Source: Melioribacter roseus (GTDB lineage Bacteria > Bacteroidota > Ignavibacteria > Ignavibacteriales > Melioribacteraceae). From it: a stretch of DNA of 44,572 bases. Shown here one piece after another: positions 17,572-33,087 of the stretch. Location of the stretch: assembly GCA_020724265.1 (NCBI GenBank), contig DYHH01000031.1:1-44572 (forward strand). The letters run 5' to 3'. The first letter of the stretch is position 1; every line of letters begins with the position of its first letter. Position numbers and translations under genes: made by a program. Below the pieces are notes generated by a model. That model was not told the DNA's origin. It did not search any database and saw nothing but the letters and a program-made list of their open reading frames with translations.

Positions 17572-20500
17572 TTATTGATTCTTCTGTAATCGGAATTTAT
17601 CCTTTGAAATAAGAGCATAGATTAAAGGTAAAATAAGAACAATAATAATTGATGAGAAACTTAGCCCACCAATTATGCTCAAACTCAAACTTCTCCAAAA
17701 AGACTCCTCAGGATTGAGAGCTAGAGGGATCAAAGCACATGCGGTTGTAATAGATGTAGTGAAAATCGGTCTTATTCTATCAAAAGATAACTGAACAATC
17801 CTCTTAAAATTGTATTCAAATAAATTTTTCGAAATATGATCAATCAATAAAATAGAATTGTTAATAGACAATCCGATTAACAATAATAACCCGGCATAAG
17901 CACCTCTATCAAAATTCAACTCTGTGAAATAAAACAAATAAACAGCACCTACCGCAGAAAATGGGATAGCAAGTAAAATGAGAAATGGTTTTTTATAAGA
18001 TTCAAACAAACTTGCAGTAAGCATAAAAATTAAAACAGCAGCCATCAATAATATAGCTGACATATTTGCTTCATCCTGTTCATTAAAAGAGAAACGGAAT
18101 TCCCGCATTGCAATGGAATAACCTTCAGGTAAGAGTTGATCATCGATCGTTTTTTGTACATACTCTTTTCCATATTTAAATGGACCTTTATAATCAAAAG
18201 TAATAAACCGAATATACTGCTGGTTTTCTCTGTGGATTGCCGGAATAACTTTTGAACGTTTGAATTCAACAAAATCACCTACTTTAATTTCTCTTCCTGA
18301 ATCCGTCAAAATGATCTTATTGCTAAGTTGATCTAACTGAATATTGTTATAATTATCGTATTTAATTTGGAAAATTACTTCATCATTATCGATTGAAAAT
18401 TTGTTATACGTTAAATTACCGCCGGTGCTTCCGCTTATAATCGAAAACAACTTAGTGGCTGTGATATCGTAGAACTTCAGCTTATCTCTCTTTATTTCAC
18501 CTACAATTTCATAAATATTATCAGCCCAATAATTCCTTGCTTTATTTATATCGACATTATCAATACGTGGGTTACGAACCAAATCGGAACGGAATCTCTC
18601 GGCAATATTTCGTGTGATTTCGTAATTATAACCACGAGCAACCACCGCCATTGTGCTGATTGGTGCACCGCCTGAAGAAAATCCGGGGCCATAGCCAAAA
18701 ACCCCAACTCTTAATCCGCCAATTCTGGTAGCATACGAGGTTAAGTAATTCTTCATTTTGTATGGAAACGATGACGAATTTTGTTTTTCATCGAATTCAA
18801 CTTTTAGAACAGCATTCTCCTCATCATAAATGTTTGCTGTTAATAGAGAAATATTATTTTTGTAAGCAAGAATTTCCCGTTCAAAATCTTTCACAAGCTG
18901 ATTCAGTCTTTTAATATCATTACCGTGCGGCAACTTAAGTTGAACAATAATATAAGTCTGATCACCATAATGCCAAATTTCACCTCTTGAAATTTTGTTA
19001 AAGAATAAATTCAATGCCCCGCCGAAAAGAGTATGTATTAGAGGTTCTACTTCTGTATATACTTCAGAATCAAAAAAGGAATTGTAGGTATTTACTAAGA
19101 AGGAATTTCCTTCTATTCGATTTGGGATTAACCATACGGGCAGACCAATTAATAGAATTAAAAATAAAAGAGCTGCCTTTTTGAAACGATATACAAATGT
19201 TATTATAAAAGTATAAAATTTAGAAAACGAATCAGCAATAGAATTCGATGTACTTTTGTGACGTTTTATAAATTTAATGTATAGAACAGGAATGAATGTA
19301 AAAGAAGAAATTAAAGAAGCGAAAAGAGTAAGTACAATTCCGAGTGCAAATTGCTCAAAGTAAAGTCTTAACTCTCCGGTAAAAAAAAGAATCGGTATAA
19401 AAACAGCAATTGTTGTGAGCGTTGATGCAAATAAAGGAGAGAAAATATTTTTTAAATGGACAACTAATTCCTTTATACCTTTATTTTGATAATACTTGTC
19501 GATATAATCTACCACAACAATTGAATTATCTATCATCAAACCTAATCCAAGAATGAAAGCAGAAATGGTTAATATGTTTAGAGAGAGATTGAAGAGATAG
19601 AATAAAATAAACGCGAATAAAAGAGAATAAATTAAAGACGAAAGAATTATCAGAGAATATTTAATACTTCTAAAAAGGAATAATAAAAGCAAAATCAAAA
19701 TTGCTAAAGAATAAACAGCACTTTGTAATAATTCATTTAGTTCGTTTGAAATATGTTCACTTTTATCAACCTCTTTATCTATAATATAATTTGGTGGCAA
19801 TGCAGATGTTAACTCATCAATTTTCGAATTCACCGCTTCTGCGGTTTTAATAGAATTTGCACCGGGTTCTTTTGAGATAATAATTGATACAGTTTCTTTA
19901 CCGTTGATACGAAAATAATTTGACGGCTGAGCATAAGAATCAACTACTTTCGCAATATCTTTAACTCTAATGGCGGAAGTATTATTAAAAACTTTAATAA
20001 CGGCATTTTCTATTTTTTCAATATCTTGAACTTTTTCGTCAACCAACAAATGAAAAAAGTATTTATCATATCGTATTTGACCCGCGGAAAGAATTATTTC
20101 AGAATTATTAACCGCATTTTCAATTTCATCATAGGTTAATCCGAATAAAAGGGCTTTTTCATAATCAACTATAATAAGAATTTCCCTATTTGTACCACCT
20201 CTAATTGATACTTCAGAAATACCATCTATTGTTAGAAGCGGATAATAAAAAGAATCGATTACTTTTCTGCGAATTTCAGATGCGTTAATATCAGCCGAAA
20301 CTGTATATGTAATAAATCCTTGAAGTTCTTTTAAATCTTCCGGTATATAAACCGATACTTTTGGAGCAGAAACACCAAATGGCAGTTTATCTTTTAATGA
20401 AAAAAGTTTTTCATTAATTTCAATTCTTGCAACGTTCATATTTGTATTTGGATGGAATTCAATTTCGATAAATGAAGAACCCGTAGTTGAACGAGATGAA

Positions 20501-20742
20501 ATATTTTTTACACCTTTAACAGATGCAATTTCGGCTTCGACAGGAGCTGTAACAAATGACTCAACAACTTCCGGGGATGTGCTAAACCAATTTACGTTGA
20601 TGCTTAATTTAGGGTATTCTGCATGAGGTGTTAATTCTATTGGGGTATTGAATATTACTGTTATACCCACAACTACCACAATAAAAAAAAACATTGAAGC
20701 GGTTACGGGTCGTTGAAGAAATATGTAAAATATTTTTTTCAA
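17572..20742 (-). CDS. RND-family efflux pump subunit (second in locus)
   Basis: 1056 aa inner-membrane proton-driven exporter with 12 membrane segments and two large periplasmic loops. The N-terminal start (FLQRPVTASMFFFIVVVVG), porter region (SPEVVESFVTAPVEAEIASVKGV) and TM4 (LGLGLMIDNSIVVVDYID) fit the AcrB/HAE superfamily. The usual Asp-Asp pair in TM4 is Asp-Asn, which is common in this subgroup. A second half repeat ends with GLLLLIGLSINNSILLIDHI and RPIFTTSITTACALIPLAL. It follows the adaptor gene by 14 bases. With the other pump at 22084 it may form a hetero-trimer like MdtBC (inference). Substrate unknown. Confidence 0.93.
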   Translation of the reverse strand: MKKIFYIFLQRPVTASMFFFIVVVVGITVIFNTPIELTPHAEYPKLSINVNWFSTSPEVVESFVTAPVEAEIASVKGVKNISSRSTTGSSFIEIEFHPNTNMNVARIEINEKLFSLKDKLPFGVSAPKVSVYIPEDLKELQGFITYTVSADINASEIRRKVIDSFYYPLLTIDGISEVSIRGGTNREILIIVDYEKALLFGLTYDEIENAVNNSEIILSAGQIRYDKYFFHLLVDEKVQDIEKIENAVIKVFNNTSAIRVKDIAKVVDSYAQPSNYFRINGKETVSIIISKEPGANSIKTAEAVNSKIDELTSALPPNYIIDKEVDKSEHISNELNELLQSAVYSLAILILLLLFLFRSIKYSLIILSSLIYSLLFAFILFYLFNLSLNILTISAFILGLGLMIDNSIVVVDYIDKYYQNKGIKELVVHLKNIFSPLFASTLTTIAVFIPILFFTGELRLYFEQFALGIVLTLFASLISSFTFIPVLYIKFIKRHKSTSNSIADSFSKFYTFIITFVYRFKKAALLFLILLIGLPVWLIPNRIEGNSFLVNTYNSFFDSEVYTEVEPLIHTLFGGALNLFFNKISRGEIWHYGDQTYIIVQLKLPHGNDIKRLNQLVKDFEREILAYKNNISLLTANIYDEENAVLKVEFDEKQNSSSFPYKMKNYLTSYATRIGGLRVGVFGYGPGFSSGGAPISTMAVVARGYNYEITRNIAERFRSDLVRNPRIDNVDINKARNYWADNIYEIVGEIKRDKLKFYDITATKLFSIISGSTGGNLTYNKFSIDNDEVIFQIKYDNYNNIQLDQLSNKIILTDSGREIKVGDFVEFKRSKVIPAIHRENQQYIRFITFDYKGPFKYGKEYVQKTIDDQLLPEGYSIAMREFRFSFNEQDEANMSAILLMAAVLIFMLTASLFESYKKPFLILLAIPFSAVGAVYLFYFTELNFDRGAYAGLLLLIGLSINNSILLIDHISKNLFEYNFKRIVQLSFDRIRPIFTTSITTACALIPLALNPEESFWRSLSLSIIGGLSFSSIIIVLILPLIYALISKDKFRLQKNQ

Positions 20743-20756
20743 CTTATTAATCGATG

Positions 20757-21974
20757 TTAACGGTTTATTACTTTTACTTTTGAGTCATGTGCTAAAGTAT
20801 AATGTCCTTCAACTATAACTGAATCTACAGGAGAAAGACCTTTCATTATTTCAATATACTGATCATTTTGTTTCCCGGTATCAACATATTTCCATTTAGC
20901 ATAATTCTCTTCTGCTGTAAAGACTAATTCCCTTTCGTCACGAACCAACAATGCTGCCTTCGGAATCAACAATCTGTTTTCCAACCGTTCAGTTTCAATT
21001 GAAGCAGAGGCAAACATTCCGGGTTTTACCATACGATCGGCATTTTTAACAGTTATAGTTACTTTTGCAGTTTTCGTTTCGGGATCAATATATGGACTAA
21101 TATGTTTTATTTTCCCAGTATAGATTTTACCCGGTAAAGCGTTGAAACGAAGGTCAACTGAATTACCTATAGAAATATTAGGGGTTTCACTCTCAATTAA
21201 GCCTACAATAACAATTAATTCTGAATTATCAAGCAATTTAAAAAGTTCTTCGCCAGTACCGATTCTCTGTCCTTCGGATAAATAAAAATCTCCAATAACA
21301 CCGTCAAATGGAGCACGTATTTTAGTGTATTCTAAATTTAACTTGGCTCGTTCGAGAGTATTTCGTGCTCGTGTAAACCCACTCTTACTAAGCAGCATTT
21401 CTTCTTTTTTAGCTCCGGTAAAAATTAATTCCAGCTCAAGCGAATCTCTTTTATTAATATATTGCTCTTCAGAAATTAATCCGGATGAAAATTGCGAGTA
21501 AAGTTTATCAAGAGTTTTTTCCAATTGATTTTCTTTATCTGTTGAAACACCTTCAATCGGGTTATATTTAATCAATAAGCCATATTCAACCCTGGCTTCA
21601 ATCAAATTGGCTTCAGCTTCTTTCAGTTCAATTTGGTACTCTTGATCTTCTAGCTGTATTAATATGTCTCCCTTCTTTACTAGTTTTCCATCGTAAATGT
21701 TAATGCTCTTAATGTAACCTGTTATATTAGAGCTTACACTGACCTCTTTAGCGGCTTTTACAATTCCATTCGCATTAGTTTTTAAAACTAAACTGCCAAG
21801 TAAAACCGGTGCAGTTTTTACATCGAATATTACCTCATCTAATTTTTCATAGTCGATTTTGGTTGCTTCAGTCTCATCATTCTTTTTGCTCTGTGAAAAT
21901 GGAATTACGAGTAAACCAATCACCACTATGAAAACAACTACTATTGCTGAAGCATATTTGATTTTTATCTTCAT
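20757..21974 (-). CDS. RND periplasmic adaptor (membrane fusion protein, HlyD/AcrA type)
   Basis: 405 aa. N-terminal membrane anchor (about 8-25), barrel-sandwich/lipoyl halves (about 70-110 and 215-250; NITGYIKSINIYDGKLVKKGDILIQL and TKIRAPFDGVIGDFYLSEGQRIGTGEEL), a helical hairpin between them (about 110-210), then the beta-barrel (DLRFNALPGKIYTGKIKHISPYIDPETKTAKV) and membrane-proximal domain. It links the inner-membrane pump to an outer-membrane channel. No TolC-like gene is next to it, so the channel must come from elsewhere. It lies between the two pump genes. Confidence 0.94.
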   Translation of the reverse strand: MKIKIKYASAIVVVFIVVIGLLVIPFSQSKKNDETEATKIDYEKLDEVIFDVKTAPVLLGSLVLKTNANGIVKAAKEVSVSSNITGYIKSINIYDGKLVKKGDILIQLEDQEYQIELKEAEANLIEARVEYGLLIKYNPIEGVSTDKENQLEKTLDKLYSQFSSGLISEEQYINKRDSLELELIFTGAKKEEMLLSKSGFTRARNTLERAKLNLEYTKIRAPFDGVIGDFYLSEGQRIGTGEELFKLLDNSELIVIVGLIESETPNISIGNSVDLRFNALPGKIYTGKIKHISPYIDPETKTAKVTITVKNADRMVKPGMFASASIETERLENRLLIPKAALLVRDERELVFTAEENYAKWKYVDTGKQNDQYIEIMKGLSPVDSVIVEGHYTLAHDSKVKVINR

Positions 21975-22083: not shown

Positions 22084-25000
22084 TCATTTTTTTGAATACT
22101 TTTCAATATAACTGTAAAGAACAGGAATAATAATTAGTGTTAAAAATGTTGCAGAAACTAATCCGCCGGTAATTGCTAATGCAAGTGACATTCTTAGTTG
22201 TGTAGCAGCGCCAATTCCAATCATCATAGGAATTAAACCGAATATAACCGTTAAGCTGTTCATGACAATCGGTCGGAATCTATCTTTTCCGGCTTGCAAT
22301 ATTGCATCACGAACAGATAATCCTTCTTTCCTTTTTCGTAATATAAATTCAACTTTTACAACTGCGTCATTATCTGCAATTCCGATTAAGATTACCAATC
22401 CCATAAGAGAAATAATACTTAGACTTTCGCCCAAAAGATAAAGGGTTAATATCCCACCAATTAATCCCAAAGGTACTGAAAAGATTATAATAAACGGATA
22501 AAGCAGTGATTCAAATTCCGATGCCAAAATAATATACATTAGCAAAACAGAAATTAGCAGAGCAACATAAAGTTTCGAAAATGAATCTTCAATTTCTTGG
22601 TTAACGCCGGCAACAATAATTACTTCCGAAGGTGTTTTTGGCAACTCATCAATTCTTTTTTCAATTTCTTTTGCAACCTTCTCTATATTTGCTTCCTGAA
22701 TATCGGCGTAAATATAAACTGTGCGAGCTTGATCTTCTCTCCAAATTTCGGAATAGATTTCTTTCCTATTAACGTCGAGCAGATTTACCAACGGTATGGT
22801 TCTATTTTCAATTTTCACAGAACGTTGAAGAACTTTCTCTAATTCATCTCTTTGATTTTCATTTGTTGTTAATTTTACAGCAACTTTCTTATCGAAATCG
22901 GAAAAGTGCACCGCTTCAATTCCTTTTACCATTGATACAATTGTGTTGACAACATTGGAAACGTTTATGCCGTATGCATTACATTTATCGCGGTTAATTT
23001 GAATACTGTAACCGGGCAAACCCGATTCCATCCCAAAAACGAATTCTTTTATTCCCGCAATTCTATTTTCCGTTAAGTCATCAATCAACAGTTTTGCTTT
23101 TGCAACGGCATCATCAATGTTGTTGTTTTTAATTTTTATTTCAATGTCGTATTCCGAAGGTGAAATTACTTGAGTGTATGCTGTCTTTATATTTTTAAAT
23201 GAATAATCTATTCCACTGAGATTACGAAATATCTCTCTAAGTTTATCTTGTGTTTCGAAATAATAACTGCTGTTATTCAGTTTCACAATTAAGTTGGTTT
23301 TTTCAACTGAGAATTGTTCCTTATTAAGGAAATCGAATTCGTTTACTCTCCCGATATTTGAAACGATACTTTGAATATTTGGCAGCTTCAGCACGGCATT
23401 TTCAATTTCGGAAGTTAAATTTGCGTTGCCTCGTAATGATATACCTTTAGGGAATGTTAAATCAATTACAAACTCTTCCTGAGATGCTTCAGGTATAAAT
23501 TCTTTCTTAATATCGATAGCTGCTAATATAGTTGCCCCTGCAAGTAAAAGCGTAATTAATATAACTTTCGGTCTGTTGTTTAGTGACCATAGAAGTAATT
23601 TATGATAATACTCAATCAATCTTTCCATCCATAGATCAACTCTATGAAAAAACTTTCTAAAGATTGAATGGAGCTTATTAAATAATAACAGGTAAGTCTT
23701 AATGACAAAATATTTGGCAGAAGTAAAAAGTAGAACAAAAGGAATTTTAGACCAAAACCATAGTTTAGCTGTTATACTTAATGAATCCGGTTTTGGAATT
23801 ATAATATATTCACTCATGTACTTGCTTCGGTCAATTTGAAAATGTTTCTCTCTCGATACAATCATCGGAATAAGAGTTAATGCAGCAAAAATTGAAGCGC
23901 TCAGTGAAAAGACAATTGCCAAAGCTTGGTCTCTGAAAAGTTCACCGGTTATTCCTTTTATAAATATCAAAGGTAGAAAGACAACAATGGTAGTAAGAGT
24001 TGCGGCGACAACCGGCATCGAAACTTCACTTGTACCTTTTATTACCGCTTCTTTTAACGATAACCCTTGTTCAATGTATCGAACTATATTTTCAATAACA
24101 ATTATAGAATTATCCAGAAGCATACCTATACCTACTGCAATGCCGCCTAAAGATATTATGTTGAAATTAATTCCGAATGCATACATTAGTAAAACGGTAA
24201 TTACCAATGATGCGGGTATCGTGATAGCAATTGCAAAGATATTTCTTAAATTACCGAGAAAGAAAAAGAGTACTATAGAAGCAAGAATACCACCGTATAA
24301 AATTTCCTGCTTAACGTTTTCGATAGCATCTTCAATAAAACCGGACTGATCTGAAACAATATTTAAATCGAATTCGGGATATTCGGCTCGAAGTGATTCG
24401 ATTACTTCTTTAACTTTTTGTGCAACTGTTACAGTATTGGCTTCAGGTTGTTTGTAGATAAGCAATCCAACGGTTTCACTTCCGTTTAATCTTGTAAGTC
24501 CGTCTCTTTCTTTAAAATTTTCCTTTACATCCGCAACATCTTTTAACAACAGCACCGAGCCATCTGAAAAATATTTTATAACGGTATTTTCAATTTCCTC
24601 TGTATTTCTAAATTCACCTAAAGTTCTTAATGAATAACGGAAAAGTCCTTTCATAATTGAACCGGCGGGTAAATTTAAATTAACTGCTTTAATTGAGTTG
24701 GTTATGCTATCGAAGGTAAGATTGTAGTTATCTAACTTAGATGGATTTACTTCAACGAGAATTTCTCTTTCCAACCCACCTGTAACAATAGCCTGCGCTA
24801 CTCCTTCAATTTGTTCAAGTCTTCTTTTGAAAATAACGCGTGCAGCTTCTTTAAGGTTTATCAATCGTTCAATTTCATGTTGCGGTGATGAATGATCGAC
24901 ATACTTTATTTCAAATCCTTTACGGTGAAGGTTTCTCTGATCTTTTCTGTAAGTAAGAACAAGTGATTGAATCGGAGAGCCTGATGGATCAGAACGGATT

Positions 25001-25377
25001 ATTGTCGGTCTGCCTGCTTCAGGTGGTAATACGAAACTTATATTATCCAGCTTCTCTCTTAAACCGATAACGGTCATATCCATATCGGTTCCCCAAACAA
25101 AGTCGATAGATATAACAGAGATACCCTCTTTAGAAACTGATGAGATTTTCTTTACACCCGTCATTGTACCGATAGATGATTCGAGCGGTTCTGTAACAAG
25201 CTTCTCAACTTCTTCGGGTGCTGCGTTTGGATATGTTGTTTGTACTACAAGATGGGGCAGATATATATTCGGCAGTAAATCAATGCCAAGCCGCGAAAAT
25301 GCGATTACACCGAGGAAAGCTAATCCGAGGTAGAGCATTGTGGTTGTAACTGATCGGTTTATAAATGTTTTGAGCAA
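22084..25377 (-). CDS. RND-family efflux pump subunit (first in locus)
   Basis: 1097 aa, 12 membrane segments and two periplasmic loops. N-terminus FINRSVTTTMLYLGLAFLG, porter motif YPNAAPEEVEKLVTEPLESSIGTMTGV, TM4 region GGIAVGIGMLLDNSIIVIENIV, and the repeat MGLVILIGIADNDAVVKVEFI in the second half. An extra segment of about 90 residues between TM6 and TM7 (about residues 515-605) makes it longer than AcrB. First gene of the three-gene efflux locus. About 110 bases separate it from the adaptor, enough for an internal promoter. Cargo unknown. Confidence 0.93.
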   Translation of the reverse strand: MLKTFINRSVTTTMLYLGLAFLGVIAFSRLGIDLLPNIYLPHLVVQTTYPNAAPEEVEKLVTEPLESSIGTMTGVKKISSVSKEGISVISIDFVWGTDMDMTVIGLREKLDNISFVLPPEAGRPTIIRSDPSGSPIQSLVLTYRKDQRNLHRKGFEIKYVDHSSPQHEIERLINLKEAARVIFKRRLEQIEGVAQAIVTGGLEREILVEVNPSKLDNYNLTFDSITNSIKAVNLNLPAGSIMKGLFRYSLRTLGEFRNTEEIENTVIKYFSDGSVLLLKDVADVKENFKERDGLTRLNGSETVGLLIYKQPEANTVTVAQKVKEVIESLRAEYPEFDLNIVSDQSGFIEDAIENVKQEILYGGILASIVLFFFLGNLRNIFAIAITIPASLVITVLLMYAFGINFNIISLGGIAVGIGMLLDNSIIVIENIVRYIEQGLSLKEAVIKGTSEVSMPVVAATLTTIVVFLPLIFIKGITGELFRDQALAIVFSLSASIFAALTLIPMIVSREKHFQIDRSKYMSEYIIIPKPDSLSITAKLWFWSKIPFVLLFTSAKYFVIKTYLLLFNKLHSIFRKFFHRVDLWMERLIEYYHKLLLWSLNNRPKVILITLLLAGATILAAIDIKKEFIPEASQEEFVIDLTFPKGISLRGNANLTSEIENAVLKLPNIQSIVSNIGRVNEFDFLNKEQFSVEKTNLIVKLNNSSYYFETQDKLREIFRNLSGIDYSFKNIKTAYTQVISPSEYDIEIKIKNNNIDDAVAKAKLLIDDLTENRIAGIKEFVFGMESGLPGYSIQINRDKCNAYGINVSNVVNTIVSMVKGIEAVHFSDFDKKVAVKLTTNENQRDELEKVLQRSVKIENRTIPLVNLLDVNRKEIYSEIWREDQARTVYIYADIQEANIEKVAKEIEKRIDELPKTPSEVIIVAGVNQEIEDSFSKLYVALLISVLLMYIILASEFESLLYPFIIIFSVPLGLIGGILTLYLLGESLSIISLMGLVILIGIADNDAVVKVEFILRKRKEGLSVRDAILQAGKDRFRPIVMNSLTVIFGLIPMMIGIGAATQLRMSLALAITGGLVSATFLTLIIIPVLYSYIEKYSKK

Positions 25378-25494: not shown

Positions 25495-26091
25495 TTAATA
25501 TTCACTATTAAGCTTATCTAAAAATTTCGAATAAAATACTTCCGAGAATTCAAAGTCCTTCGTAACTGGTTGAAAGCTAAAAGTCTTTACTCCATTCTTA
25601 ACAAATATAAGTTGTGGGTATTTTGTTGTATCAAAAGATAACTCTTTTTTGAATATATTTTCATTCACAACCTTAATAGGGATTGTTAGATTGGCTTGCT
25701 TTTTGAAAATTAGGGACTTATTGCGCTTCTCTTCAGTGGTAATTGCAATGACATTAATACTTTTACTTTTCATTTGATTCCGCAAACTGTCTACCCTAAT
25801 AAGCTCTCTTTCCTGGCATTTAGCACAATCAAAATCTGACAAAAGTATAACTAGATAAGTAGAATCTTTATTCAACAATAATTTCTGATTATTAACATCG
25901 TAAACTTCTGCTACTTCTCTATCAAGGATAGCATTAGAGTTCCACAAGGAATTTATTCTTTTTTCGTAAATCGCTTTTTCTGCATTAAAAGTGAACTCAA
26001 AATCTTCAATTTTAATACGATAAAAGTTAAACAACGAGAAGACAACAAGTAATAAAAACCAGAAACCAAGTTTATATAATTTAGTTTTCAT
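25495..26091 (-). CDS. Membrane-anchored thioredoxin-like protein (module 1)
   Basis: 198 aa. One N-terminal membrane anchor (about 8-24), then a periplasmic thioredoxin-like domain. The redox motif is FDCAKCQ (Cys89, Cys92) after the strand YLVILLSD, and the cis-proline is Pro159 in KYPQLIFV. The CxxC sequence CAKC and the absence of further conserved WCxxC wording set it apart from classic thioredoxin; it is closer to TlpA/redoxin-type reductases. Its start overlaps the propeller gene end by 11 bases, so it is translationally coupled. In context I infer a periplasmic disulfide reductase or oxidase for the Cys-rich peptide encoded in the same module. Confidence 0.8.
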   Translation of the reverse strand: MKTKLYKLGFWFLLLVVFSLFNFYRIKIEDFEFTFNAEKAIYEKRINSLWNSNAILDREVAEVYDVNNQKLLLNKDSTYLVILLSDFDCAKCQERELIRVDSLRNQMKSKSINVIAITTEEKRNKSLIFKKQANLTIPIKVVNENIFKKELSFDTTKYPQLIFVKNGVKTFSFQPVTKDFEFSEVFYSKFLDKLNSEY

Positions 26092-27064
26092 TATAATCTT
26101 TTAATTTATATTTGAATACCTCTATCTCGGTGTTTTCTTTAGTTATATAAATTTGTTTGTCAGAGATAAAAATCTTTGATACCATTCCGATATTTTTTAA
26201 AAGTAACGAATATTTATATCTTCGCTCAGAAAGTGAATAAATATCAACTACAAATTCTTCTGCTTTCATCTGTAATTCGGTGGGCATAATGAAAACAAAT
26301 AAATCATCTTTGTATATGTTAGTACTTGCAAAAATATATTCCTCTCTACGTGGGAAATTTATAATGTTTCGACTCCCTTTTTTGCTTTTATTAATTTCTA
26401 CCCTTGGGTTCGTTGTTTCGTCAATTAATTTAAAAACATTCTCTATCATTCCTTCATCAGAATAAATAATAACATAACCTAAAATACTGGAAATATAAAT
26501 AAGTCTATTTGATACAGTATAATGTATATCTCCGATCAAAAAAGGCAACATCCCCAAATCTTCATTATCATTTATAGTCTCTGTGTCAAAAACATTCTGA
26601 TATTGAAAAATATCTTTTTGAAGAAAATTAATTCTTTGAAAAGGAGAAAATGTAAAAGGATCCATAAATTGAAAGGTTACTACCTCATTATTTGATACAA
26701 AACAAACTCTACCAGGAGTAAGTGTAGTTTTATATTCATAAACTTTTTCCTTATCGAAAACAGCAAATTTGTTATCATTCGGGTTGATCAGTTTAATCCG
26801 ACCATCCTTATCTACGTCAAAATAAAATCCGTTTGTAAATTCTCCTGGTCCTCTTCCTTTTTTACCATACTTCTGGATGTACTTACCCGTTCTATCAAAC
26901 TTTTTGACCGAGCAATCTAAGAAATCTAACACGTAAATATTTCCAAACTTATCAATCTTTATATTAGCTGGAAGAAGGAACATTTCATTGTCAATTCCCC
27001 CAAAACTAAATAAAGAATGAATTTCATATTCTCGAAAATCTCGCTCCCATGTTTTATTTTCCAC
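26081..27064 (-). CDS. Six-bladed beta-propeller protein lacking its leader (module 1)
   Basis: 327 aa when read from the GTG at 27064. Repeats of the NHL/six-bladed type: NIKIDKFGNIYVLDFLDCSVKKFDRTGKYIQKYGKKGRGPGEF, FDVDKDGRIKLINPNDNKFAVFDKE. Such proteins in Bacteroidota are usually secreted lipoproteins. Read upstream in the same frame there is an in-frame TAA (27094-27092) and then a complete lipoprotein leader (27241-27095), so the mature part has been cut off from its export signal. From the GTG it would stay in the cytosol. I see no good ribosome binding site before the GTG. Either a nonsense mutation, readthrough or a sequencing error; compare the intact paralogue at 28453. Confidence 0.75.
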   Translation of the reverse strand: MENKTWERDFREYEIHSLFSFGGIDNEMFLLPANIKIDKFGNIYVLDFLDCSVKKFDRTGKYIQKYGKKGRGPGEFTNGFYFDVDKDGRIKLINPNDNKFAVFDKEKVYEYKTTLTPGRVCFVSNNEVVTFQFMDPFTFSPFQRINFLQKDIFQYQNVFDTETINDNEDLGMLPFLIGDIHYTVSNRLIYISSILGYVIIYSDEGMIENVFKLIDETTNPRVEINKSKKGSRNIINFPRREEYIFASTNIYKDDLFVFIMPTELQMKAEEFVVDIYSLSERRYKYSLLLKNIGMVSKIFISDKQIYITKENTEIEVFKYKLKDYNEN

Positions 27065-27091
27065 TTCAGCAAAAATAAATTTAATCTCTCT

Positions 27092-27241
27092 TTAGTGATT
27101 CCCAATACTTACTTCGATACTCTCCTTTTTTAATGGAAAACTTTTCTCCAAATCCAATTTATCATTCTGCTCTTTTTTACAGCTCCATGATATACTTAAA
27201 ATTAGAATAATTACAAATGTAACATTGATTCTTTTAGTCAA
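27092..27241 (-). pseudogene. Orphaned lipoprotein leader of the module 1 propeller
   Basis: Starting from a TTG at 27241 with GGAGG five bases upstream (an ATG at 27253 in frame is also possible but has no ribosome site), the frame codes for a positively charged start (TKRIN), a hydrophobic core (VTFVIILILSIS) and a lipobox-like WSC followed by KKEQND. It then runs through SFPLKKESIEVSIGNH to TAA at 27094-27092. Nine codons after the stop the same frame reaches the GTG of the propeller. The leader has the form expected for an intact propeller lipoprotein, so the gene was once continuous from 27241 to 26081. Confidence 0.7.
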
Positions 27242-27266
27242 AAAAGCCTCCATTAAGAAAAATTCA

Positions 27267-27361
27267 GGCTATTCTAAAACTTGGATCATTTAGCATCTTG
27301 GTCTGCAGATAGTTATCTAAAATGAATTAAATACTTTGTTATATTTTGTCTTAGAATAGCC
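27267..27361 (-). promoter_or_regulatory. Long-loop hairpin between peptide and propeller genes
   Basis: GGCTATTCTAAAAC (27267-27280) pairs with GTCTTAGAATAGCC (27348-27361) with one mismatch (11 perfect outer pairs); the loop is 67 bases. It starts 7 bases after the stop of the small peptide gene and, on the minus strand, ends in TGAATTTTTC. It may act as a partial terminator or mRNA stabiliser, letting the peptide be made in excess over the downstream genes. Function inferred from position. Confidence 0.5.
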
Positions 27362-27368
27362 AAATTAA

Positions 27369-27632
27369 CTAAATAAAATAACCAAAACAGTAACCGTGAC
27401 CAACAACCCATGTGCAATAATCGTTATTTGAATTAGAACAAATTTCATTACACAGGTCTTCTTTTTCAGCTTTACTTGTTTGAATTAATTCAAGTTTATA
27501 ACCAAAAAACGACAGTTTCCCGTTGTCATCACCGAAAACAAGTTGAATATTAACAGCAAAAGTAGCCAAGAATAGAGATAGAATAGATATGTTAATAAAC
27601 TTAAACAATTTTTGCATAACTTTAGTTTTCAT
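27369..27632 (-). CDS. Small secreted Cys-containing peptide (module 1)
   Basis: 87 aa with AGGAGG ribosome site. N-terminal signal sequence (KLFKFINISILSLFLATFAVNIQLVFG, cut probably after Gly-34). The mature part is about 53 residues: DDNGKLSFFGYKLELIQ, a Lys/Glu-rich linker, then four cysteines (CNEIC, DYC, GYC) and an aromatic tail GYCFGYFI. The FFGYKLEL segment resembles LFGMNISL of the peptide at 30058, so the two are related. It resembles in layout the NVEALA-type small secreted peptides of Bacteroides, which also sit by propellers and thioredoxins, but has no NVEALA motif. Four Cys could make two disulfides. Confidence 0.75.
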   Translation of the reverse strand: MKTKVMQKLFKFINISILSLFLATFAVNIQLVFGDDNGKLSFFGYKLELIQTSKAEKEDLCNEICSNSNNDYCTWVVGHGYCFGYFI

Positions 27633-27648
27633 ACAACCTCCTATTTTA

Positions 27649-28119
27649 TTATTTATTATTTACTCTCCCAGCGCTGGGATTATTTTCATTCATTGTTAGA
27701 TAAATTGTTACAATGAGTAATAGAAAATTCCTGATTATCATTCCAATCCCAAAATCTGATTTGATTGTGTTTCCAAAACAACCACAATCACTTTCTAAAC
27801 CAATTGTAAATCCATAAAGACTGAATAGAAAAAAGAAAATAAATAATGTTGTAACAATTCGAAGTGTAGTTTTAATTTTTACTTTTAGAATCAGCATTAT
27901 ACCAAGTGATATTTCAATAACCGGCAAAAGGGATGTTAATGGTATTATAAAGCTATCTTCAATTAAGTTGGTAATTTGTATTGTTTCTATAAGCGGCTGT
28001 GAATCAATTATTTTACTTATGCCGGTAAATAGAAGAAGGACAGCAAGGAAGTAGTAGCTGAAAAGATATAAACTTTTTTGCAGATTTATCGATAACTTAT
28101 TTATTGGTAATGAGTCCAT
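27649..28119 (-). CDS. MauE/DoxX-like redox membrane protein (module 1)
   Basis: 156 aa from the ATG at 28119 (a TTG nine bases further up is also possible). Four membrane segments. The strongest feature is ESDCGCFGN (Cys112, Cys114), the paired Cys conserved in MauE-type proteins, which help disulfide formation in methylamine dehydrogenase and pair with thioredoxin-like partners. Its C-terminal half is nearly identical in DNA and protein to the copy at 32531, with 38 identical consecutive residues around the CGC motif. First gene of module 1, just behind a TTGACA/TATCTT promoter. Likely passes electrons across the membrane to or from the periplasmic thioredoxin and peptide (inference). Confidence 0.85.
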   Translation of the reverse strand: MDSLPINKLSINLQKSLYLFSYYFLAVLLLFTGISKIIDSQPLIETIQITNLIEDSFIIPLTSLLPVIEISLGIMLILKVKIKTTLRIVTTLFIFFFLFSLYGFTIGLESDCGCFGNTIKSDFGIGMIIRNFLLLIVTIYLTMNENNPSAGRVNNK

Positions 28120-28148
28120 CAAACTCAAATTGATTTATCTTTATGATG

Positions 28149-28176
28149 AAGATAAAAAAAAAGAAATTTGTGTCAA
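28149..28176 (-). promoter_or_regulatory. Promoter of module 1
   Basis: On the minus strand TTGACA (28176-28171) and TATCTT (28154-28149) are 16 bases apart with a T-rich spacer. It ends 29 bases before the MauE start codon, so the leader is short. The same pair with the same flanking words is found before the second MauE copy at 33058-33087, indicating that promoter and gene were duplicated together. Confidence 0.7.
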
Positions 28177-28452: not shown

Positions 28453-29505
28453 TCAAAAGGAAATATCAAATCTTAATACCCTTGATTTACTCCATTCAAA
28501 TGTAAATAAATGTTTTTCGCTTATATCAATTGATGAAACTGCAAATTCCTTTGGTACCATAAATAGTTTTTCTAGATATGATTCTGTTAAACTAATATTA
28601 AAAATCAACAAATATTGATTACTTGCTACTACGATATGATTGTCACCAAGCTTTTCAACATCGGTTATGATCATAGCAGTTCCACCCTGTTCTTGATCAA
28701 TTAAGTTTTTCTCTAAATCACTTATTTGTTTACTTACTAATTTGATTCCGTGAAATATGCTTTGTTGAATATTTGTAAAAAATATATAAGGTAAACTATG
28801 ATAATAGAAACAAATAATATTTTCAGAAACAAATAATGCATTTAGAGAAAGCATAGAATTGTATTTGGGATTATTAGTATTAAAAATCGGAGGAAATGTG
28901 TAGGTTGTATCCTCTTCCATTTGATGATAATTAATTTTATTTATATTATAAACATCATAAAAAGTGTACATCTCAGTAGGAACTAATAGCATTTTTAAAT
29001 TAAGTGAAAAATCTTGAACAAAAGGCATAAAAGCTGCTTCTATTGAATTTATATAGGTAAAATCTTTATCAAAAATTTGAATTCGCCCGTTGCCAACATC
29101 TTGTACAAAAATATACTTTCTATTTGATTTTATTGAAAATGGTTCTATGAATTCTTTCGGAGCTTTCCCCCTCCTTCCTATTTTGCTTATAAAATTACCT
29201 GAACTATCAATCTCTATTATTGTATTTAATATTCTGTCCGATATAAAATATCTATTATCTTGAAAGAGACAAGAAGTAGGGAAGGCTAGAAAAATTTCTT
29301 TTTCAACACCTTTAATAAACTTATCATCGATAATAACACTTGGTAAAAGTGTATCCGAATTAATATCATCTAAATCAAATTTAGTTATTTCCATTCTTTG
29401 AAGAATTTTTTCAATATTATTGTTATTTGAAAATTTATTCTCCTTTGTATCGGTACATCCGAATAATATAATTATTAAAATATAAGTTATATGATTTTTT
29501 TTCAT
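28453..29505 (-). CDS. Six-bladed beta-propeller lipoprotein (module 2)
   Basis: 350 aa. Lipoprotein leader with a good lipobox (KKNHITYILIIILFGC; Cys17). The mature part is a six-bladed NHL-like propeller; one blade reads DRILNTIIEIDSSGNFISKIGRRGKAPKEF, the next VQDVGNGRIQIFDKDFTYINSI. In wording and length it matches the BF3164-like propellers of Bacteroidota. Intact, unlike the paralogue at 26081. It follows the small lipoprotein gene by 19 bases and is the last gene of the right-hand operon. Likely a surface or periplasmic binding scaffold; partner unknown. Confidence 0.85.
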   Translation of the reverse strand: MKKNHITYILIIILFGCTDTKENKFSNNNNIEKILQRMEITKFDLDDINSDTLLPSVIIDDKFIKGVEKEIFLAFPTSCLFQDNRYFISDRILNTIIEIDSSGNFISKIGRRGKAPKEFIEPFSIKSNRKYIFVQDVGNGRIQIFDKDFTYINSIEAAFMPFVQDFSLNLKMLLVPTEMYTFYDVYNINKINYHQMEEDTTYTFPPIFNTNNPKYNSMLSLNALFVSENIICFYYHSLPYIFFTNIQQSIFHGIKLVSKQISDLEKNLIDQEQGGTAMIITDVEKLGDNHIVVASNQYLLIFNISLTESYLEKLFMVPKEFAVSSIDISEKHLFTFEWSKSRVLRFDISF

Positions 29506-29524: not shown

Positions 29525-30058
29525 TTATTCTATTGATTCATAATTATGATATCTGATATATATTAGAATTACCTTCTGAGTTTGGGGGGACAACGATATG
29601 TTCAAGGTAACTTCTCTTTGAGTTTCTTGTTCAAACTTCCATTTTGTGTGTTTATCGTTTGATAATTCTGGTTCGCCATAATCTGTTGTAACGATTTTAA
29701 TAAAATCTAAGTATAACTCATTTAATTCAGAATCTAATGACAATAGTTGAAACTGAAGAAAATATAATTTCCCCTCATAGAATTGTGCTAATAGGTTATG
29801 GATATCGTGATTAAAAAATTTACCACCTGAATAAAAATCCATTCTCATTTTACCCATATTATCAACCTTCAATAGCTTTAGTTCTCTTTCCGTAAAGAGC
29901 TTTTTTACATCTTGGGGGGAGGATTGCATACTTAATTTCTTAAAAAATAGACCGAAGGAGAGTTCTGCTTTATCGTAATTGTCTGTATTACAGTTTGTAA
30001 ATGCAACAGTACAAATTATTAAGAAAAAAATCATTTTTATTTTCAAGTTTATTAGCAT
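29525..30058 (-). CDS. Secreted hypothetical protein in the peptide cluster
   Basis: 177 aa from the ATG at 30058, which overlaps the stop of the peptide gene (TAATG), so translation is coupled. The frame is open further upstream to 30133, but that part lies inside the peptide gene. Signal sequence KMIFFLIICTVAFTNC, perhaps a lipoprotein with Cys at about 23. Mature part: helical start (AELSFGLFFKKLSMQSSPQDVKKLFTERELKLL), then strands (KLYFLQFQLLSLDSELNELYLDFIKIV) and EVTLNISLSPQTQKVILIYIRYH. I do not recognise the family. Its coupling to the Cys-rich peptide suggests a dedicated chaperone or immunity-type role (inference). Confidence 0.65.
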   Translation of the reverse strand: MLINLKIKMIFFLIICTVAFTNCNTDNYDKAELSFGLFFKKLSMQSSPQDVKKLFTERELKLLKVDNMGKMRMDFYSGGKFFNHDIHNLLAQFYEGKLYFLQFQLLSLDSELNELYLDFIKIVTTDYGEPELSNDKHTKWKFEQETQREVTLNISLSPQTQKVILIYIRYHNYESIE

Positions 30059-30426
30059 TAATAATATCCTGGGCAGTTTAGAGAATAATGGTACCAAGTT
30101 GAACCTATTCTGTAAATACAACTGCAAGCACAATTATAAGAACTACAATAAGCTTCTTGACCAGTTACTGCACAACCACCAATACAATTCATAGATTCGC
30201 AATAGGCTGTTGCTGTACCTCCACCACCACCGGATTCGGGATCATCCTTCAACACGGCAGCATTAATATCATTACCTAAGGATATATTCATTCCAAACAA
30301 TTCAAAATTATCCGTTTGATTATCAGAAAAACCAATTTGGATATTTAAGAGAAATAAAACAACAAACAGAAAATATCCCAAAATTTTGCTGCACATTTTT
30401 ACTCCTTTTTGCACCCTGACAGACAT
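30058..30426 (-). CDS. Small secreted Cys-rich peptide with glycine linker (module 2)
   Basis: 122 aa from the ATG at 30426 (AGGAGG upstream). A second ATG at 30396 has its own GGAG and gives the better signal peptide (CSKILGYFLFVVLFLLNIQIGFS), so that may be the true start. The mature part starts DNQTDNFELFGMNISL, related to the peptide at 27369. It then has a GGGGG linker and a C-terminal knot-like domain with eight Cys in about 47 residues (YCESMNCIGGC, YCSSYNCACSC, NCPGYY). Eight Cys, Gly/Ser-rich spacing and export signal suggest four disulfides. Function unknown; candidate secreted toxin, signal or surface peptide. Confidence 0.75.
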   Translation of the reverse strand: MSVRVQKGVKMCSKILGYFLFVVLFLLNIQIGFSDNQTDNFELFGMNISLGNDINAAVLKDDPESGGGGGTATAYCESMNCIGGCAVTGQEAYCSSYNCACSCIYRIGSTWYHYSLNCPGYY

Positions 30427-30661: not shown

Positions 30662-31285
30662 TTAACCCTCATCAATATCATTAATTAATTGTTCAATATT
30701 TGCAATGGACCAAAGTGAAAAATCTTCATTATCTGGAATTGGTAGATAGGAATATACAATACGTCGTTCGGCGACAACAGTTATCAGAGGAAAGTGCTTA
30801 ATATCTTTTATTAATGAAGGTTTTGAACCCATGAAAGCAAAAAAATCAAAATCAACTTCCGTTACTTTTCTCAATCTTAACGCATCAAGCTCACTATCAC
30901 CAGCATAAATGGCTTTGAAACTAAGATTATTACCAAATCTATTCTTAAGTTTTTGAAGTAGCTTAAGTTCCCTTACTTGACAGGGGTTACACCCGGAATT
31001 CGATAATAAAATTAATATTGTAAAATCTTCGAATTGAGTTTTGCTGGATTCACCAGTAATGATATTACTCACTTTTTCAATTGGGAATAGATTACCGATA
31101 ATACTTTGTGTATATGAAAGAGAATTAAGAATTTTCTCTTTTCTAAAATTAATCAGCTCCGAGTTAGCCTGATTATTGTTATACAAGTAATTGCATAGCG
31201 TAATTAAAAGCATAAGTATTACTACAACTGCAAAAAATCCGGTTTTATAGTTAATTTTATCTTTATTTATCTTCAATAATTTCAT
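30662..31285 (-). CDS. Membrane-anchored thioredoxin-like protein (module 2)
   Basis: 207 aa from the ATG at 31285; the frame is open to 31318, but that part overlaps the propeller gene. One membrane anchor (about 18-33; GFFAVVVILMLLITLC), then a periplasmic thioredoxin fold with NSGCNPCQVRE (Cys99, Cys102) and a cis-Pro in KHFPLITVV. It is the counterpart of the protein at 25495, with low overall identity but the same order: anchor, about 60 residues, CxxC, cis-Pro. It overlaps the end of the propeller gene, as in module 1. Probably a disulfide exchange partner for the cluster's peptides. Confidence 0.8.
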   Translation of the reverse strand: MKLLKINKDKINYKTGFFAVVVILMLLITLCNYLYNNNQANSELINFRKEKILNSLSYTQSIIGNLFPIEKVSNIITGESSKTQFEDFTILILLSNSGCNPCQVRELKLLQKLKNRFGNNLSFKAIYAGDSELDALRLRKVTEVDFDFFAFMGSKPSLIKDIKHFPLITVVAERRIVYSYLPIPDNEDFSLWSIANIEQLINDIDEG

Positions 31286-32288
31286 ATACATGTACTTCCG
31301 GATTAGGAAGTATTCCATTTTTTATTTCAGGTTGATGCATAAAATAAATTTTAGCATTCTTAGCAGCTAAAACCGGTTTATCAACTATTATATCGTTATA
31401 AAAATATTTCCCATCTGTCCCTAATATTTGAATACCATACAATCTATTATGATATAACAGAATGAGCAATTTATCTCTATCATAATAGAAAATATTTTGA
31501 ATTGTCGTTTTATTATTCAATACCTTTGGAATGTCTTTCATTACTTGAGCTGGATTATTATCATTCAAGTCTCTTTCAACTTTTCGAAAATATTTTGGAT
31601 ACTTTACGAATACATCAAGTTGTTTCCCATTTTGGTCAAATTTGAAAATTTCTGGACTAACCAAGTTCACTTGGTAAATATATTCTGAGTCATCAACAAC
31701 CAATCCACCGCCTTCAAATCTGTAAATCAAATTTTTAAATTCACCTGGAAAATTTCCGAAAGAATATACTGATTTGCCGAAAGGAGTCATTTTTTTTAAT
31801 TGATTACCATCGTCTAGATTGTAATAGCCAATTAGATTTCCATCACTTAAGAAATCAAAATGAATCGGAGGGAGAAATGAAACATCCATTTCTCCAAGAC
31901 AATTTCCCAAATTGTCAAAACGAAATCCCCAAGGTCCTCCATTTATCACAAGTATATTTCCGCTTTTATCAAATTTCGAAAAAATAGGTCTCCAATTGAA
32001 TCCCGGATGACACGAAACTGGGGAAACCTTATTTATAATGTTACCACTTTCTTGAAATAAATATACCTCCCCCGCAACACGATCAGTAATTAATAAATCA
32101 TCGGAATTATTTACATCAAGATAGTTTATATTGCCAATTACTATTTCATCTGGAAAGTTTATTGTTTTTGAATGCTTGGCAATTTGATAAAAATTAATTT
32201 CTTGTGAAATGCTGATTGAGTTTAACAGAATTAAATACAGTCCAACTAATAAGTTTATTATTCTCATTTTAAATCCCAAAATTTTCAT
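31263..32288 (-). CDS. Six-bladed beta-propeller protein, secreted (module 2)
   Basis: 341 aa from ATG 32288; the second ATG at 32267 (GGGA upstream) gives a cleaner signal peptide (RIINLLVGLYLILLNSISIS). Unlike the paralogue at 28453 there is no lipobox Cys. Propeller blades: NYLDVNNSDDLLITDRVAGEVYLFQESGNII, FSKFDKSGNILVINGGPWGFRFDNLGNCLGEM, VVDDSEYIYQVNLVSPEIFKFDQNGKQLDVF. It lies 6 bases after the Cys-rich peptide gene and overlaps the thioredoxin gene, so peptide, propeller and thioredoxin are one translation unit. Role inferred as binding partner of the peptide. Confidence 0.8.
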   Translation of the reverse strand: MKILGFKMRIINLLVGLYLILLNSISISQEINFYQIAKHSKTINFPDEIVIGNINYLDVNNSDDLLITDRVAGEVYLFQESGNIINKVSPVSCHPGFNWRPIFSKFDKSGNILVINGGPWGFRFDNLGNCLGEMDVSFLPPIHFDFLSDGNLIGYYNLDDGNQLKKMTPFGKSVYSFGNFPGEFKNLIYRFEGGGLVVDDSEYIYQVNLVSPEIFKFDQNGKQLDVFVKYPKYFRKVERDLNDNNPAQVMKDIPKVLNNKTTIQNIFYYDRDKLLILLYHNRLYGIQILGTDGKYFYNDIIVDKPVLAAKNAKIYFMHQPEIKNGILPNPEVHVYEIIEDK

Positions 32289-32294
32289 TACTTT

Positions 32295-32519
32295 TTAATA
32301 TGGATCATCAAAACATGTACAAGAAAAAATCGAACACTCATTTAAGGAACTCGGTAGATGACAACTAACCCAATAATCTCCTGAACCGCTACAAATACAT
32401 CCACGTCCATAAGACATTTTATATTTTTGTTCATACGCCGCTTGGGCATCTTCTGTTGAAATAAGTAGATTGATAAATCCAATAATTATAACAGTTAGTG
32501 TTACAAACAGCTTTTTCAT
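32295..32519 (-). CDS. Small secreted Cys-rich peptide (module 2)
   Basis: 74 aa with AAGGAG ribosome site. Classic signal peptide (KKLFVTLTVIIIGFINLLIS) with an AQA-A cleavage site at about residue 27. The mature part is about 47 residues with six Cys (GRGCICSGSG, VSCHLP, NECSIFSCTCF), a pattern suited to three disulfides. It shares the signal peptide with the mini-ORF at 30463 but not the mature sequence. It lies 11 bases after the MauE gene and 6 before the propeller. I know no family with this exact Cys spacing. Confidence 0.75.
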   Translation of the reverse strand: MKKLFVTLTVIIIGFINLLISTEDAQAAYEQKYKMSYGRGCICSGSGDYWVSCHLPSSLNECSIFSCTCFDDPY

Positions 32520-32530
32520 AATTCTACTCC

Positions 32531-33028
32531 TTATTTTATTAATAGATGAGTATTCCCTTGAACAGGGTTTTTATTTGAATTTATGGTTAAGTAAATTGAA
32601 ATTAATAGTAAGGAGAAGTTCCTAATTATCATTCCAATCCCAAAATCTGATTTGATTGTATTTCCAAAACAACCGCAATCACTTTCTAAACCAATTGTAA
32701 ATCCATAAAGACTAAATAGAAAAAAGAAACCAAATAATGTAGCAACTAGTCTAAGTGTAATCTTAATTTTCAATTTTAGAAGAAGCATTACAGCAAGGGC
32801 AACTTCTAAAAGCGGCAAGGCTGTGGCGAGTAAAAGAACCAGATTTTGATCAATCATACCCAAACTTTTAATTGTCTCAATTAAAGGTTGAGGATCAATT
32901 ATTTTACTTATGCCGGAAAAGAGAAGAACAAATGAAATGAGGTAATAATTGAAGAAGTAAAACCATTTATATAATAAAGATTTCTTGGAGTAATTGATAG
33001 TTGACTTATTTATTGATAAGGAGTCCAT
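32531..33028 (-). CDS. MauE/DoxX-like redox membrane protein (module 2)
   Basis: 165 aa from the ATG at 33028 (a TTG nine bases upstream is in frame). Four membrane segments and the ESDCGCFGN motif. The C-terminal half is almost the same as in the copy at 27649, in DNA as well (about 27728-27875 against 32619-32766, only a few percent different), while the N-terminal half has diverged. That pattern suggests recent duplication or gene conversion of the redox half. First gene of the second operon, directly behind a matching promoter. Confidence 0.85.
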   Translation of the reverse strand: MDSLSINKSTINYSKKSLLYKWFYFFNYYLISFVLLFSGISKIIDPQPLIETIKSLGMIDQNLVLLLATALPLLEVALAVMLLLKLKIKITLRLVATLFGFFFLFSLYGFTIGLESDCGCFGNTIKSDFGIGMIIRNFSLLLISIYLTINSNKNPVQGNTHLLIK

Positions 33029-33057
33029 CAAACTCAAATTGATTTATCTTTAAGATG

Positions 33058-33087
33058 AAGATAAAAAAAAAATAGAATTTGTGTCAA
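33058..33087 (-). promoter_or_regulatory. Promoter of module 2
   Basis: Minus-strand TTGACA (33087-33082) and TATCTT (33063-33058), 18 bases apart, in the same sequence context as the promoter at 28149-28176; the spacer differs only in the length of the T run and a few bases. The spacer length difference (16 against 18) could set the two modules to different strengths. Confidence 0.7.

Follow-up and report, generated by a model that had tools for sequence, protein, structure and literature searches.

A single TAA codon separates the leader and propeller of a putative secreted lipoprotein gene in Melioribacter roseus

A lipoprotein-like leader and a DUF5128 propeller, encoded on the minus strand of a Melioribacter roseus contig (DYHH01000031.1; the whole stretch of 44,572 nt that was analysed is called the window), probably make up one secreted lipoprotein gene that was interrupted by a nonsense mutation, a recent one by the standards of the family. 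ATG 27253-27251 and TTG 27241-27239 open one minus-strand frame, which is closed by TAA at 27094-27092; beyond this codon the identical frame stays open down to TAA 26083-26081 (Table 1). The initial annotation had described a leader with a GGAGG site in the frame of the propeller, parted from it by this one TAA, and both the frame reading and the profile comparison agree with that description. As the GGAGG at 27251-27247 overlaps ATG 27253, it is usable by TTG 27241 with a 5-nt spacer and not by the ATG. The anti-SD pairing energies are at best -9.3 kcal/mol for TTG 27241 and 0.4 kcal/mol for both ATG 27253 and GTG 27064, where the anti-SD letters behind this and every other pairing energy do not come from this genome. 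The window leader carries a lipobox-like cysteine, and a cysteine behind a hydrophobic stretch was also seen in 8 of 11 relatives (ambiguous in one, absent in two), all judged by eye.

The relatives indicate that leader and propeller are one gene. Using a profile of the N-termini of the 11 relatives, the 49 residues ahead of the stop scored 23.7 bits (E 4.7e-06 over 2001 sequences) versus 13.9 bits for the best of 2000 shuffles, which argues that the agreement in frame is not due to chance; the columns of this profile came from an alignment that included the window, whose sequence was then removed. The full-length profile aligns to the window over positions 4-372 of its 373, and a single TAA falls inside the aligned part. 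Each of the 11 full-length copies outside the own genome (two each in G005, G021 and G050, one each in G010, G020, G026, G042 and G053) is a single frame with zero stops. Since these copies built the profile, they match over their full length by construction; that their DNA is free of stops does not follow from it. No aligned relative has a stop at the stop column of the window (0/11). The profile match across the stop, the fused relatives and the sense residue at this column together point to one gene carrying a nonsense codon. A pair of conserved separate genes, raised in the initial annotation as something that related strains might always have, can be dismissed: the comparison, which was between species and genera, found all 11 full-length matches in other genomes to be fused, single genes. 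The identity of these relatives to the window is 21-42%, and the most distant of them may not be strict orthologues.

When 97 genomes from the genus, the family and the order were searched with the single propeller sequence at E 1e-10, 16 of them, including the own one, gave a match. Thirteen uninterrupted frames were read, and 11 of them, from eight genomes, were aligned; the two left out (L013 and L028) are the most distant propellers and are likewise uninterrupted. Partial matches to other propellers (e.g. L014-L017, L023-L025, L027 and L029) fell outside this reading of leader continuity. With the profile at E 1e-20, 12 of the 79 family genomes matched, the own genome among them and G107 only via a partial match to another propeller. 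Among 14 assessable copies, 11 are intact and 3 are broken (the window, G019:C3 and G007:C71), with G007:C9, which begins at a contig end, set aside and partial matches to other propellers uncounted.

Table 1. Positions of the features discussed, in window coordinates unless a locus is named.
Feature	Position	Strand	Remark
Second RND permease	17572..20742	-	
Membrane fusion protein, RND pump	20757..21974	-	
RND efflux permease	22084..25377	-	adjoins cassette
Thioredoxin-like protein, CAKC	25495..26091	-	overlaps propeller end by 11 nt; weak matches to AhpC-TSA (E 0.042) and ResA (E 0.0043)
Remainder, DUF5128 six-bladed propeller	26081..27091	-	open to TAA 26083-26081
GTG, earliest in-frame ATG/GTG/TTG past stop	27062..27064	-	no ribosome site ahead
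Premature TAA	27092..27094	-	variable column; sense residue in 11/11 aligned relatives
Leader fragment, lipoprotein-like	27092..27241	-	49 codons from TTG 27241, then TAA; profile homology to relatives' N-termini
GGAGG ribosome site of leader	27247..27251	-	5 nt ahead of TTG 27241
Intergenic hairpin, 11-bp perfect arms	27267..27361	-	between peptide gene and leader; one place in genome
Small Cys-containing peptide, signal-like N-terminus	27369..27632	-	first gene upstream of broken one
MauE-family membrane protein	27649..28128	-	PF07291, E 1.2e-20
Intact DUF5128 propeller lipoprotein	28453..29505	-	distant family member; above Pfam cut-off
Second Cys-containing peptide	30058..30426	-	
Probable second thioredoxin-like protein	30662..31318	-	blastp matches in L056 and L057; CxxC by eye
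Third propeller protein	31263..32288	-	DUF5128 13.1 bits, under 22.9 cut-off
Third Cys-containing peptide	32295..32519	-	no blastp match in relatives' loci
Second MauE protein	32531..33037	-	67% identical to first
O-antigen-ligase-like (Wzy_C) + TPR proteins in relatives' cassettes	L053 8728-10554; L054 3789-5198; L056 6040-7776; L057 8260-9921		

The broken propeller belongs to the DUF5128 family (PF17170) of six-bladed propellers at 37.6 bits against a curated cut-off of 22.9, yet differs from its members in being interrupted. Its match to the NCBIfam model ScyF, at 39.6 bits, is far below the cut-off of 350. To place the stop on a fold, an intact relative from G005 (L003) stood in for the window protein. 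The AlphaFold model of this relative is a propeller (pLDDT 82.4, pTM 0.82), and its best matches among known structures are NHL propellers, with TM-scores of 0.74-0.75 normalised by target and 0.56 by query for the best two rows. The residue at the stop column varies among the 11 relatives and the column precedes the blades; by a hand-counted position, it falls in a short hairpin of the model (strands 42-47 and 50-56) between the end of the lipid anchor and the blades. The stop thus parts the blades from both export signal and anchor.

Translation from TTG 27241 would stop after 49 codons and give at most a short lipidated stub, and the propeller remainder lacks an export signal and is probably made little or not at all. 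The downstream thioredoxin-like gene, which overlaps the end of the propeller, may be lowered too. The case for silence of the remainder is weakened by a control on neighbouring intact starts, in which the pairing is strong in one of five (peptide 27632, -11.4 kcal/mol) and weak, from -2.4 to 0.4 kcal/mol, in the other four (propeller 29505, -2.4; thioredoxin-like 26091, -1.1; propeller 32288, -0.6; 31318, 0.4). As four of the five intact neighbours are also weak, that GTG 27064 has no ribosome site is no proof of silence. About 12 nt upstream of ATG 26983, which is in frame, lies a GGGGGA stretch (-8.4 kcal/mol), and judged from this motif a leaderless propeller could be made from that ATG.

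Among the readings offered by the initial annotation, a fresh nonsense mutation in a family member that is being lost is the best supported, as the 11 full-length relatives are uninterrupted and the remainder has no additional stop or frameshift. The relatives share 22 invariant columns and the window keeps 20 of them, the changed ones being the start codon and a glycine in the C-terminal part. With the start excluded, 20 of 21 invariant residues are kept in the remainder, so that the loss looks recent on the family scale; in a leave-one-out comparison, the relatives themselves keep from 20/20 to 20/23. An undecayed remainder is also compatible with continued use of a product, and the changed glycine allows a somewhat older loss. 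Differences at codon positions 1, 2 and 3 against the two G005 copies (0.38/0.30/0.54 and 0.41/0.30/0.55) fit coding selection but are mostly older than the stop, and so do not date it.

A sequencing or assembly error, with the gene intact in the organism, is unlikely. The lesion is of the size of a single substitution in a gene that is otherwise unbroken, as this explanation would have it, but no homopolymer of at least four letters touches the stop. Ten other window genes were scanned and all gave Pfam matches at E 1e-5, one of them under its family cut-off; thymidylate synthase, methylmalonyl-CoA mutase and isocitrate dehydrogenase each cover practically the full profile without a change of frame. 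The assembly is 99.98% complete in 56 contigs, although such quality figures bear on the assembly and not on the base itself. The TAA could also be a minority allele. It is also improbable that the locus is a genuine two-part gene, terminating at the TAA and restarting at GTG 27064 or ATG 26983, with the stub and the leaderless propeller both under selection. The undecayed propeller, the GGGGGA upstream of ATG 26983 and the fact that a strong ribosome site is missing in 4/5 intact neighbours would suit such a gene; against this, leader and propeller are fused in all 11 full-length matches from other genomes, and a leaderless propeller would presumably remain cytoplasmic, apart from its presumed partners.

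Very unlikely is an on/off surface protein, whose stop is suppressed or flips within the population. Single lesions in otherwise readable frames occur in other cassette genes too, which would be in keeping with it, but the phase-like stop that the initial annotation had proposed finds no substrate: no tandem repeat lies over the stop (the sole one reported spans 27331-27349), nor does any homopolymer of the above length touch it. The inverted-repeat pair upstream (27267-27361) lies beyond the gene and has one copy in the genome, and no switching element was seen at the lesion. ARAGORN typed 42 of 45 tRNA hits and none carries a TAA suppressor anticodon; of the three untyped hits, one is at a contig end, one is partial and one is below the cut-off. 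TAA closes 30 of 40 window frames chosen out of 53, a further point against read-through. The inverted repeat folds into a hairpin of -27.3 kcal/mol (z -2.61; 1 of 200 shuffles is as stable) and is possibly a terminator or attenuator. A T-rich stretch comes next after it. That the hairpin marks a mobile or repeated element was rejected, as its pattern occurs at a single genome site, and Rfam at gathering scores found only a tRNA in the window.

The preferred reading, a nonsense mutation in one lipoprotein gene, makes the stop alone an ordinary pseudogene, to be annotated as one gene and not two, and 26081-27064 should not be taken for a cytoplasmic protein. The propeller gene appears to be patchily present and, judging from the assembled copies, to decay recurrently. 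The G019:C3 propeller is frameshifted as assembled, and the same-genus copy in G042 (69-74% identity) is intact; the G007:C71 copy also changes frame as assembled. Both breaks lie at other places in the gene than the window's TAA and are taken as independent of it. In another cassette of the G019 array, a thioredoxin-like gene has one in-frame TAG and is readable in the rest. In the other three genomes of the genus, which are 80, 93 and 99% complete, neither the propeller (at E 1e-10) nor the RND permease (at E 1e-200) has a match; in one of them MauE occurs in a distant form (31% identity). An accessory module that is patchy and has been broken more than once would suggest ongoing gene decay and no programmed switch. 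Cassettes of peptide and propeller, with breaks in three genomes, point to a fast-turning accessory system. This G019 array, locus L056 (G019:C3:1-20000), strings together many peptide, propeller and thioredoxin-like genes, among them at least the frameshifted propeller and the thioredoxin-like gene stopped by TAG.

The surrounding module, a little-studied cluster, is of more interest than the stop itself. The cassette runs in the order MauE, Cys-containing peptide, leader/propeller, thioredoxin-like protein, RND permease, membrane fusion protein and second RND permease. Upstream lies a second cassette of MauE, peptide, propeller and a probable thioredoxin-like protein, and between the two are a further peptide, one unnamed protein and the 28453 propeller. 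The name 'thioredoxin-like' stands for weak family matches plus a CxxC motif, and for 30662..31318 no thioredoxin family match was found in Pfam or NCBIfam. The MauE genes with the DNA just upstream (27680-28162 and 32571-33071) are 73-91% alike in pieces, and judged by this likeness the two regions are a duplicated cassette head. The 28453 propeller had been called an intact paralogue of the broken one. It is indeed intact, and the DUF5128 family model matches both proteins, but it does not hold up as a duplicate or spare copy: searched against its own genome at E 0.001, the broken propeller matches itself and, weakly, another contig, without reaching 28453. Given this divergence, the 28453 propeller would be weak as a back-up.

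We compared 12 loci from 10 relatives, with the counts made by eye and the own genome's C18 locus left out. MauE is present in 8/12, Cys-containing peptides in 9/12 (one a contig-end fragment), a thioredoxin-like gene recognised by blastp in 8/12 and RND genes in 7/12, with part of the misses being genes cut by contig ends. Peptides 27369-27632 and 30058-30426 have blastp matches in the relatives' cassettes. An alignment of 16 peptides, which are short and variable, shows one invariant cysteine column and, by eye, a leader common to most of them, which was not seen in the third window peptide and two G019 peptides. None of the 16 has a convincing Pfam or NCBIfam match (best E 0.024). In having a leader, a variable tail with cysteine and a propeller gene next door, these peptides presumably resemble the NVEALA peptides of Bacteroidota; identity with these was rejected, as no such family is among the Pfam or NCBIfam matches of the 16 peptides.

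The window bears a likeness to mau gene clusters in its closely spaced, same-strand genes for MauE (PF07291), a thioredoxin-like protein, a small Cys-containing protein and a propeller; the MauB subunit of mau clusters is a seven-bladed propeller. No methylamine dehydrogenase subunit was found among the family matches of the scanned cassette proteins, and the module is therefore not classed as a mau cluster. The combination of MauE and thioredoxin-like partners suggests extracytoplasmic disulfide handling. In the decRiPPter report, MauE is speculated to form disulfides in the beta subunit of methylamine dehydrogenase, and three candidate RiPP families from Streptomyces are described that have mauE homologues, one of them also mauD, with no other mau genes in the three Streptomyces genomes named there; each family has a predicted precursor with at least eight residues that are, by context, cysteines (PMC7794033). 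The window likewise has MauE beside a short, Cys-containing, precursor-like peptide. Unlike the module described here, those candidates are from another phylum, and a DUF5128 propeller and an RND pump go unmentioned in the passages on them.

Judged by gene order, a plausible role for MauE and the thioredoxin-like protein in an intact system is the extracytoplasmic oxidation of the small Cys-containing peptide, which the propeller lipoprotein would plausibly bind or receive. We tentatively propose, as a possibility that we hold with less than even confidence, that MauE, the short Cys-containing peptide, the DUF5128 propeller lipoprotein, the thioredoxin-like protein and the RND pump, joined in some relatives by an O-antigen-ligase-like TPR protein, form an undescribed redox-matured secreted-peptide system of Melioribacteraceae, in which peptides may diversify in tandem cassettes and propellers, perhaps receptors or protectors of the peptides, may be repeatedly gained and broken. 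We recognised no published account of a MauE/peptide/propeller module in the open-licence literature. All four of the large membrane proteins scanned, from four loci, match Wzy_C with TPR repeats. Adjoining the cassettes in two relatives are an NlpC/P60 and an N-acetylmuramoyl-L-alanine amidase (Amidase_2) protein (L060 2067-2687 and L058 10060-10707, respectively).
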